Origin: a virus
Virus record (IMG/VR): IMGVR_UViG_3300034375_010899
Location: 1-64,000 of that record
DNA: 64,000 nucleotides
Strand: one strand, 5' to 3'
A program made the translations under genes and the position numbers. The notes below the pieces were generated by a model that did no database searches, was not told the origin of the DNA, and was given only the letters and a program-made list of their open reading frames with translations. Shown in pieces: positions 3,174 through 13,133 of the stretch; position 1 is the first letter of the stretch, and each line of letters opens with the position of its first letter.

Positions 3174-3644
3174 ATGGCTCAGTATTCTGGTGATGTTTGG
3201 ATGGGTTCCGATGTTGGTCGTCAGACAGTTACTGTTAGTTCTAACACCGCTTATGGTGCAAAAAGAATGATGGCAGAAATTTACAATGCTGATGAAAATG
3301 ACATCTACAATGTGAGGCAAGTAAGCAACTCTTCAGATTCTTCTGGTGGAGGGTCAATGGAGGGAAGCGGTATATTGCTAGGAGGGGCAGCAATTCTATT
3401 TCTTGTTGTATTTCTTGCTCCTTGGGTTTTTATGGCAGCAGGTGGAGCACTTGGATATTGGGTCTCTAAGAAACTATGTGGTACTGGATTATCTGATGCA
3501 GTAGAAGATGAGAATGGTAAAGCAATTGCAATTATTCTTGCATCGACTCTTGCTCTTGGTGGATTTGGTTTTGTTCAAGGTAACAACTTTAAGGAAAGCA
3601 TCAACACTGAAACAACTCAAACCCAACAACTTCAGCAGCAATGA
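3174..3644 (+). CDS. Putative two-pass membrane protein
   Basis: A 156-residue protein. Residues 66-96 (GILLGGAAILFLVVFLAPWV onward) and 117-135 (AIAIILASTLALGGFGFV) are strongly hydrophobic and should span the membrane. The N-terminal 60 residues are polar with a Ser/Gly linker, and the tail is Thr/Gln-rich. It has its own promoter just upstream. Its TGA overlaps the ATG of the HNH gene (ATGA). The role is unknown; an inner-membrane effector or superinfection factor is speculation. Confidence 0.75.
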   Translation: MAQYSGDVWMGSDVGRQTVTVSSNTAYGAKRMMAEIYNADENDIYNVRQVSNSSDSSGGGSMEGSGILLGGAAILFLVVFLAPWVFMAAGGALGYWVSKKLCGTGLSDAVEDENGKAIAIILASTLALGGFGFVQGNNFKESINTETTQTQQLQQQ

Positions 3645-8852: not shown

Positions 8853-9109
8853 CCTTATTAATCCTTCTTAATCCCTTCTAATACCCTTAGGAAACCTTCA
8901 GATAATCCCTTCTAATACCCTTAGAAATCCTTCAGAAACCTTCAGATAATCCCTTTAGAAACCTTCAGATAATCCCTTTAGAAACCTTCAGAAACCTTCA
9001 GATAATCCCTTTAGAAACCTTCAGATAATCCCTTCTAATACCCTTAGAAATCCTTCAGAAACCTTCAGATAATCCCTTCTAATACCCTTAGAAATCCTTC
9101 AGAAACCTT
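8853..9109 (+). repeat. CCTT array phased at 10-13 bp
   Basis: Twenty-four CCTT tetramers occur at spacings of 10, 11 or 13 bases. They are built from 23-, 33- and 44-bp units that begin ATCCCTT and end CTTCAGATA. Every reading frame is interrupted, so it is non-coding. The spacing is close to the DNA helical repeat, which suggests a bent or protein-wrapped site. Confidence 0.85.
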
Positions 9110-9210
9110 CAGATTCTTGTGATTTTAGACCGCATTCTAACACGAGGGCACGAAAAAGTCAAGGGGGCGCGAAATAAAAATTCACAGGGGACTTCGTTAT
9201 ACTCTAAGGC

Positions 9211-9431
9211 ACTACGAGATCATGTACGAGATGTGCACTACGAGATCATGTGCGAGATATACACATAATAACAATATACAATATACACATATAAGATCAC
9301 ATACGAGATATAACATGATACGAGATCCTGTGTGCCTTATACAATAACAAATATACAATATAAGCACCTTATACAATGCTTACGAGACTGTGTGTGTGCT
9401 TGTGCGAGATATGTGCATATGAACACGAGAT
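9211..9431 (+). repeat. CGAGAY direct-repeat array
   Basis: Nine CGAGAY hexamers at 9215, 9227, 9241, 9253, 9304, 9321, 9383, 9405 and 9426. The first four form a 26-bp tandem duplication beginning ACTACGAGATCATGT (9211 and 9237). They lie in very AT-rich DNA, an iteron-like arrangement. Confidence 0.75.
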
Positions 9432-9571
9432 ATGCACACAATTACACATAACATAATATATACAAATAAGAGACCCACACAGATATGTGCCAGTTCTAGA
9501 AGTGGTTTCTAGACATTGACTTCCTGATGCCCATCCAGTATACTTAACAAAGTTAAGGAGCACTAGACCCA

Positions 9572-10294: not shown

Positions 10295-10351
10295 TAAAAG
10301 AGCACAGCGCCCAAAATCGTGTATTGTAGTTAAATGTTCAGGAATTCACCA

Positions 10352-11279: not shown

Positions 11280-11339
11280 TGCCCGTGTGCCAGTTGGCAG
11301 ACTGTCCACTCCTGCCCCGAAACCGCCCTACCCCGTGCC

Positions 11340-11538: not shown

Positions 11539-11621
11539 GTGCCAATCGGGGGAGTGCCCACCATTCCCCCCAAAGGGCACCTCGACCGACTATTGTTACA
11601 AAGTAACGGACAAACGGAACC
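11539..11621 (+). repeat. 83-nt intergenic element, copy 1
   Basis: Begins GTGCCAATCGGGGGAGTGCC and ends at the start of the next gene. The first 43 bases are identical to copy 2 at 13051; overall about 77 of 83 match. GGGGGA pairs with TCCCCC, and the loop GTGCCC can pair with GGGCAC downstream, an H-type pseudoknot. A GTTAC-aaa-GTAAC hairpin and a TATTGT box follow. Confidence 0.75.
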
Positions 11622-12411: not shown

Positions 12412-12466
12412 GTCGGATGCCCGAACAGTTGGCAAGGTGTCCACTATTTCAACACAGGGCACCTAA

Positions 12467-12480
12467 ATCGTGTATTGTAT
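12467..12480 (+). promoter_or_regulatory. Candidate promoter AATCGTGTATTGTA
   Basis: The same 14-base motif occurs at 10317-10330 before a gene. TATTGT resembles a -10 box. Here it would start the structured RNA at about 12485. Confidence 0.4.
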
Positions 12481-12484
12481 AGAA

Positions 12485-12600
12485 GTTGAGAGGGGCACAG
12501 GACACCCGATCACCACTCCTAGTGAGTCAGTTGGCAACTCTACTGCTGGTGATAAACTCTCAACACTCTACATCAGGGGAGGATTAACTCCCCTTTCTTT
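12485..12600 (+). ncRNA. Candidate structured small RNA
   Basis: Three nested helices: GTTGAGAG (12485-12492) with CTCTCAAC (12557-12564); ATCACCA (12509-12515) with TGGTGAT (12547-12553); AGTGAGT (12521-12527) with ACTC-t-ACT (12537-12544). An intrinsic terminator follows at 12575-12600 and a candidate promoter precedes. There is no ATG between them. The nested perfect pairing in a gene-free gap, ended by a terminator, suggests a phage small RNA of about 115 bases. Confidence 0.55.
12575..12600 (+). terminator. Intrinsic terminator
   Basis: AGGGGAG (12575-12581) pairs with CTCCCCT (12588-12594) around a six-base loop, followed by TTCTTT. It ends the candidate structured RNA. Confidence 0.75.
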
Positions 12601-12616
12601 ATACTCAGGTCAGCCG
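12595..12616 (+). repeat. CTTTATAC element, copy B
   Basis: CTTTATACTCAGGTCAGCCG, overlapping the T-run of the terminator and followed by CCAGTTGGCAGAGTGGCAC. It is the second copy of the element first seen at 11261. Confidence 0.65.
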
Positions 12617-12684
12617 CCGCAACCAGTTGGCAGAGTGGCACAAGAGCGGTTGAAATTGGCGGCGATCTGTGCAATTATAGGATC

Positions 12685-13002
12685 ATGGAAAACAACGCAA
12701 CTCAAATGTCACTTTTCTCCCAAGGTTGGAAGGCAGAGCAACACTTTGGCAGTGAGTTGACTGCTCATCACCTGAACACTCGTTCAGTGTATCGTTTCAA
12801 GGAGAATAGCGCCATTGCTATCACTCACTCTGCAAAGTACGTTGACAACGGAACTGTGGATGTGTTCGCAGTTTCTTATCGTAAAGAGGTGAATTCTCGC
12901 CACTCTGTTACTGAAACTGTTGAATTTTTCTCTAACTGGTTGGATGCATACTATTGCGGTGTTCAGTGTGTGAATAACCTGAACATGGAGTTGGTTTGCT
13001 GA
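12685..13002 (+). CDS. Hypothetical protein, 105 residues
   Basis: Begins MENNATQMSLFSQGWKAEQH. The C-terminal part (SVTETVEFFSNWLDAYYCGV and on) looks helical; the middle (SAIAITHSAKYVDNGTVDVF AVSY) looks like beta strands. No family is recognised. It is flanked by recurring intergenic elements on both sides, so it is probably an independent transcription unit. Confidence 0.65.
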   Translation: MENNATQMSLFSQGWKAEQHFGSELTAHHLNTRSVYRFKENSAIAITHSAKYVDNGTVDVFAVSYRKEVNSRHSVTETVEFFSNWLDAYYCGVQCVNNLNMELVC

Positions 13003-13021: not shown

Positions 13022-13043
13022 TTCTTTATACTCAGGTCGGCCG
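13022..13043 (+). repeat. CTTTATAC element, copy C
   Basis: CTTTATACTCAGGTCGGCCG, eight bases upstream of the second copy of the 83-nt element. Confidence 0.65.
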
Positions 13044-13050
13044 ACCCCCT

Positions 13051-13133
13051 GTGCCAATCGGGGGAGTGCCCACCATTCCCCCCAAAGGGCACCGTGATCG
13101 ACTATTGTTACGAAGTAACGAACAAAGGGAACC
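13051..13133 (+). repeat. 83-nt intergenic element, copy 2
   Basis: Second copy of the element at 11539, identical over its first 43 bases. Its differences preserve the GTTAC/GTAAC hairpin (gaa instead of aaa in the loop). It stands 15 bases before the ligase-fold gene start at 13148. Confidence 0.75.

Follow-up and report, generated by a model that had tools for sequence, protein, structure and literature searches.

Cyanophages are major killers of ocean picocyanobacteria, and the RNA elements at work when infection begins are poorly known. Stabilizing stem-loops at the 5′ end of a transcript exist, for example in the ompA leader. The RNAs named in the literature on cyanophages are wcaG, manA, PhotoRC-II, glnA, CfrI and abiF. 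The first four are structured cis RNAs in the 5′ UTRs of T4-like cyanophage genes (Weinberg 2010, PMC2864571), and their downstream genes are described as metabolic. T4-like phages also carry promoter-early-stem-loop (PeSL) cassettes (Arbiol 2010 and Comeau 2014, as cited in PMC4503421), whose stem-loops are described in that source as terminators. Our comparative analysis indicates that the element considered here is a noncoding RNA of T4-like cyanophages with five helices, and that it usually stands right at the 5′ terminus of an early mRNA. Like the four cis RNAs, it is a structured RNA 5′ of T4-like cyanophage genes; however, the genes that follow it are small and have no assigned function. 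It shares with the PeSLs, as they are outlined in PMC4503421, the combination of an early promoter and a stem-loop in a shuffled gene region with differing neighbor genes, but it is a multibranched RNA with a conserved core that lies 3′ of the promoter. As in leaders of the ompA type, its terminal stem would lie at, or a few nucleotides from, the transcript start, while the element has an extra conserved domain and any stabilizing effect is putative.

The window, the whole stretch of 64,000 nucleotides that was analyzed, is part of a 70,309-base IMG/VR virus record, and the closest annotated DNA to this record is that of Synechococcus phages. The sequence at 12485-12600 lies in the gap between a gene for a 63-residue protein (end 12411) and a gene for a 105-residue protein (start 12685), the latter without a match in Pfam or PHROGs. 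It contains no ATG, as the earlier note on this DNA had observed, and is spanned by a GTG-start open reading frame of 96 codons at 12470-12760. The features of the locus are collected in the table.

Table. Features of the RNA locus and its surroundings in the window.
Feature	Position	Strand	Remark
Upstream promoter region, repeated: CAGTTGGCA..TGTCCAC box and GGTGTCC..GGGCACC inverted repeat	12426..12463	+	Copies of the box elsewhere
Early-promoter -10 region AATCGTGTATTGTATAG, a few nt 5′ of the RNA	12466..12481	+	Putative promoter
Structured RNA element	12483..12567	+	Covariance-model match, 101.4 bits
P1 5′ strand GUUGAGAG	12485..12492	+	Pairs with 12557-12564
P2 hairpin GGGCACAGGACACCC (GGG / CCC)	12493..12507	+	Paired in 28 of 28 sequences
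P3 domain: P3 stem 12510-12514 / 12548-12552, around P4 and P5	12510..12552	+	RNAalifold consensus
P4	12515-12518 / 12524-12527	+	Inside P3
P5	12533-12536 / 12544-12547	+	Inside P3
P1 3′ strand CUCUCAAC	12557..12564	+	Partner of P1 5′ strand
Intrinsic terminator AGGGGAG-GATTAA-CTCCCCT, then TTCTTT	12575..12600	+	Specific to window lineage
Own promoter region of the gene that follows, CCAGTTGGCAGAGTGGCAC...GATCTGTGCAATTATAGGATC	12622..12684	+	Resembles DNA 5′ of RNA-less homologues
Next gene, 105-residue protein	12685..13002	+	Open reading frame

The promoter-like motif AATCGTGTATTGTA, correctly described in the earlier note as reused, is present at two positions of the window only, 10315 and 12466, and the -10 region has an exact second copy at 10315. 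Some 26-27 nt of this promoter region are identical in about 60 GenBank cyanophages, and in the relatives described below an equivalent TGTATATTA lies upstream of the RNA at an equal distance. Further upstream, the CAGTTGGCA..TGTCCAC box has an exact copy at 11291, with related boxes at 11571 and 13083; DNA resembling the region at 12426..12463 also precedes the leaders of S-SCSM1, S-SKS1 and S-BM3.

A search of IMG/VR with a 20-base core of the element returned 26 contigs, and with further patterns that covered the core and each of the two halves the family grew to 46 members, comprising 44 IMG/VR contigs, the isolate S-SCSM2R (GenBank PQ898602.1) and the window. S-SCSM2R is a cultured carrier, on Synechococcus WH7803. 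Since the exact patterns by which the members were gathered prescribe parts of P3-P5, some of the constancy within the patterns follows from the search itself; two final scans, with one half relaxed in each, recovered no further members, which limits this concern and implies a sharp edge to the family at this sensitivity. A covariance model built from the 28 distinct rows scores the members at 73-112 bits and everything else at ≤19 bits. Candidate remote copies in L010, L105, S-RIM32 and L175 (13-19 bits) were judged to be chance or too weak. When 28 records were searched whole, 25 gave one strong match each, S-SCSM1 and S-BM3 gave none and S-RIM32 only its weak match; many of the searched records are fragments, so that S-SCSM2R, which is complete, is the only genome for which a single copy is established. 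Two contig-pattern searches of genomes for a host origin yielded no exact match to the core, and the model recognizes neither the Cytophagaceae nor the Bacillota MAG pattern matches.

In the RNAalifold consensus of this family P1 closes the element, P2 follows directly on the 5′ strand of P1, and P3 surrounds P4 and P5. None of the 22 pairs is missing from any of the 28 distinct sequences (616 of 616 pair cells are standard), and sliding the partners by 1-3 columns cuts pairing to 30-50%. Changes on both sides of a pair occur at three pairs of P1 and one of P3, as the earlier note had demanded of relatives in its own test. P1 is found as GUGGAG, GUGUGAG, GUUGAG or, in the window, GUUGAGAG, each with its own complement, and one pair of P3 appears as U-A, U-G and C-G. 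Covariation is confined to four pairs because the family is so conserved; two of the three pairs of P2 are invariant across the 28 sequences, and the P3-P5 domain, of about 46 nt, is nearly so. This fold retains two of the three nested stems originally proposed, namely the outer 8-bp stem GTTGAGAG/CTCTCAAC, which is P1, and a middle stem that is predicted at about 12509-12515 / 12547-12553. The innermost one (alignment columns 38-46 with 56-64) has a pair broken in 11 of the 28 distinct relatives, and the P4 and P5 hairpins, formed in every one of them, fit better.

Members of the family differ by a single A after CUCCU, present in some and absent in others, and by a 14-nt insertion near P2 in L019 and L064 (14-16 nt in the element overall, the loop region of P5 being longer by two bases in L064). 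These indels would break any frame and thus rule out a conserved reading frame, and a coding explanation was rejected. The compensatory changes and the absence of coding constraint together identify a structured RNA family. Among known RNAs, a hammerhead ribozyme was considered and set aside; some copies read CUGAUGA, the invariant core of that ribozyme, but the window and others read CUGGUGA, the segment is a strand of the covarying P3, and there is no Rfam ribozyme match. ARAGORN did not recognize a tRNA or tmRNA. At the Rfam gathering score the element is unmatched in the window and its relatives, at E≤5 only unrelated sub-threshold matches appear, and at E≤0.5 there are none in four phage loci. 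Nor does it match the covariance models of wcaG, manA, PhotoRC-II or glnA; S-SCSM2R carries wcaG at a locus other than that of the element. We found no description of the element in the literature on cyanophage RNAs, although further papers could describe it.

It had been argued that such nesting of stems is unlikely by chance. Folding energy gives no such support; the 85-nt element has a z-score of -1.7, which is equalled or exceeded by 469 of the 3196 windows of the scan, its raw folding energy ranks about 33rd of 3196, and the z-score scan across the window does not single it out. With the terminator included, the z-score is -3.0. The case for the element rests on conservation and covariation in relatives. 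The unremarkable energy of the element by itself would suit fortuitous stems between genes, in the absence of a conserved RNA, but a near-identical element in 46 records, with unrelated gene contexts and covariation, refutes that explanation, to which we assign next to no probability.

In most relatives the RNA stands directly after an early promoter and shortly 5′ of small phage genes that differ between loci, with no terminator. Conservation is bounded by P1 at both ends, and the promoter DNA before P1 is of several types; in some a -10-like element, TATATTA or TATTGTATAG, lies a few bases ahead of the RNA, and others have a differing AAAGTGTCCTAATAGT sequence. Given this boundary and the variety of promoters, the RNA probably starts within a few bases of P1. 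The downstream genes are of the phrog_1987 type at 14 loci and of the Kyano_Gp96 (PF23790, phrog_554) type at 10, a 42-residue MDDLW-type gene lies downstream at nine, and the rest are of other kinds. In leader copies with a nearby gene, about 24-38 nt separate the conserved core from the start codon.

An element that travels with early promoters among small shuffled genes could be a PeSL-like shuffling cassette at the DNA level, with no RNA function, the repeat persisting by promoting recombination; such cassettes are described for T4-like phages (cited in PMC4503421). The early promoter and the intergenic stem-loop among shuffled genes are present, but several copies per genome are not. Each record has one strong match, only the promoter boxes being repeated, and a single copy offers no substrate for recombination within a genome. 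Furthermore, the compensatory changes in P1 and P3 keep RNA pairing rather than DNA identity, and conservation tracks the boundaries of the RNA rather than the promoter. We consider this explanation very improbable.

Many leaders contain a second conserved hairpin after the element, GAGAGGUAAA..AAAUGUGU(UCY)..(GRA)ACCGCCUCUC. It is located at about 1600-1660 in L004, at 612-656 in L191 and at 601-646 in L192, and is also found in L068, L016, L020, L053, L057, L062, L066, L067 and L070. Its inner stem has paired changes, it contains an SD-like GAGAGG and an AUG, and it occurs without the element in S-SM2 and ACG-2014h. Rfam gave no match to it in the loci scanned.

The window and four contigs with an identical element form a lineage in which the RNA is followed by an intrinsic terminator, whose presence the earlier note had recognized; the hairpin (12575-12594, with a T-rich tail) begins 10 nt after P1. 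Homologues of the gene at 12685 in L038, L039, L045-L047 and L049 have a similar promoter directly upstream and lack the RNA. With its own terminator, and with a promoter for the next gene that is independent of the RNA, the RNA appears to be a unit of its own in this lineage. In sequence architecture this is a small RNA gene, with its own promoter, RNA and terminator followed by a gene with another promoter. We infer that the transcript starts at about 12483-12485 and ends at about 12600, and the predicted product is a free RNA of about 115 nt. The proposal of a small RNA made for this DNA thus holds for the layout of the window lineage but not for most relatives, in which the element is a 5′ leader with no terminator, and the small RNA is a local form of a leader-RNA family.

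This free-standing unit raises the alternative that the RNA acts in trans, with a released RNA operating by base pairing or by binding or titrating a protein; leader copies would be freed by processing or termination, and the window lineage would represent the free form. The single strong match in each of 25 records, including the whole S-SCSM2R genome, the interchangeable gene context and the promoter-RNA-terminator layout are consistent with this, as are the terminator that follows the element by 14 nt in L065 and the conserved loops, which could pair with as yet hypothetical targets. Conversely, in most copies the next start codon is reached without a terminator, as would be the case for a leader, and the minimal relatives described below are plain leader hairpins. 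A trans-acting role appears unlikely on balance, if a serious contender.

A terminator after the element is found in only two lineages. In L065 (element at 3440-3524), L057 and L067 it is unrelated to that of the window, with a hairpin ACTGGGCACGTTAGCTTGCATCGGTAAGTCCCAGT and seven or more T between the element and the start codon, and the space before the gene is too short for a new promoter. The other distinct copies gave no terminator 3′ of the element, except for a marginal match downstream in L054. The layout of L065, L057 and L067 would fit an attenuator, and with the multibranched fold and nearly invariant core it would be consistent with a cis-acting switch that senses a ligand or protein and regulates either termination or translation of the early gene downstream, in the manner of a riboswitch or attenuator. 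The second hairpin over an SD-like GAGAGG and AUG, which follows many copies, could serve the same end. Nevertheless, the downstream genes share no pathway and have no assigned functions, most copies have neither a terminator nor an obvious SD to hide, and any conserved alternative pairing between element and terminator is hypothetical. We therefore regard a switch as a rather doubtful explanation.

The promoters of cultured cyanophages provide a further comparison. At the same distance from the promoter several of them have an unannotated minimal leader hairpin, GUGG-a-GGGG...CCCC-a-CCAC, which corresponds to P1 and P2; we found it in S-SM2, S-SCSM1, S-BM3, S-SKS1, S-MbCM6, ACG-2014f and others. 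A BLAST search with promoter and hairpin gave 76 places in 74 records, mostly cyanophages. Only promoter-adjacent matches to the word GTGGAGGGG were used, as it recurs by chance elsewhere in genomes. The minimal hairpins precede Gp96-type genes in S-SCSM1, S-BM3, S-MbCM6, S-SKS1 and S-ShM2, a phrog_1987-like gene in Sf-FS3 and other genes in ACG-2014f and Sf-CH5. For the phrog_1987-type gene of S-SM2, the second hairpin is the same and the AAAGTGTCCTTATAGT promoter region is similar, and the leader begins with GTGTGGAGGGGAGACCCGACAC, a simple hairpin. Minimal and full forms therefore share the promoter distance, P1 and P2, and some downstream gene families, but the minimal form lacks the P3-P5 domain; in sequence, the full element differs from the minimal hairpin by about 46 additional nt, which lie between the 3′ strands of P2 and P1.

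That the terminal stem contributes to the stability of the transcript is favored by its location at the 5′ end, by a P1 that changes while its pairing is kept, and by the existence of minimal versions. We tentatively propose, with slightly less than even confidence, that the element is a mobile 5′-leader RNA that shields early transcripts from decay at the 5′ end and has an added domain that binds a partner. The P1/P2 hairpin at the 5′ end would hinder 5′-end-dependent decay of the early phage transcript by RNase E or RNase J, and the nearly invariant P3-P5 domain would bind a protein, a small molecule or an RNA. The element would move between loci during gene shuffling, behind differing promoters, and in the window lineage the terminator and the separate downstream promoter would yield a free RNA. 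Host RNase E rises when cyanophage P-SSP7 infects the cell, and phage transcripts are reportedly shielded from this enzyme by antisense RNA (PMC9692554, PMC10989914). These findings make 5′-end protection plausible in this biology, and we infer by analogy that they may carry over to the present phage. The near-invariance of P3-P5 points to a specific partner, and is compatible with a trans-acting RNA or a switch too; it needs a function beyond that of a simple protective stem. A pure mRNA stabilizer would be expected at many promoters per genome, against the one strong match per searched record. It is possible, and we hold this open with some reserve, that the element represents an undescribed class of marine-cyanophage RNA that engages a specific host or phage partner in early infection, as a leader or as a free sRNA, its domain having been added to a simple hairpin. 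The defined fold, the cultured carrier, the minimal versions 5′ of the same genes and the free-standing form make up a natural comparison series. With this series one could ask by what means phage transcripts persist in a host with RNase E raised by infection, and whether a regulatory RNA can arise from a phage leader.

Several repeats were observed in and around the locus. The P2 sequence CACAGGACACC (12496-12506) resembles the promoter box CACAGGGCACC (12453-12463), and CAGTTGGCAACT is similar to the upstream box CAGTTGGCA..TGTCCAC; duplicated promoter boxes may have given rise to the RNA. A 25-nt repeat, TTCTTTATACTCAGGTCGGCC, is present in four intergenic gaps of the window (11260, 12595, 13022 and 14323), 5′ of promoter-like boxes, and its copy at 13022 forms CCTGAG-TTCTTTATA-CTCAGG. 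An intergenic block of 83 nt, with GTGCC...GGGCACC inverted repeats and a promoter-like CGACTATTGTTAC end, is duplicated at 93% identity (11539-11621 and 13051-13133). Tandem 44-nt direct repeats, CCTTTAGAAACCTTCAGATAATCCCTTCTAATACCCTTAGAAAT, followed by a cluster of TACGAGATCATG-type repeats, occupy 9008-9114 and 9209-9446 of the window.
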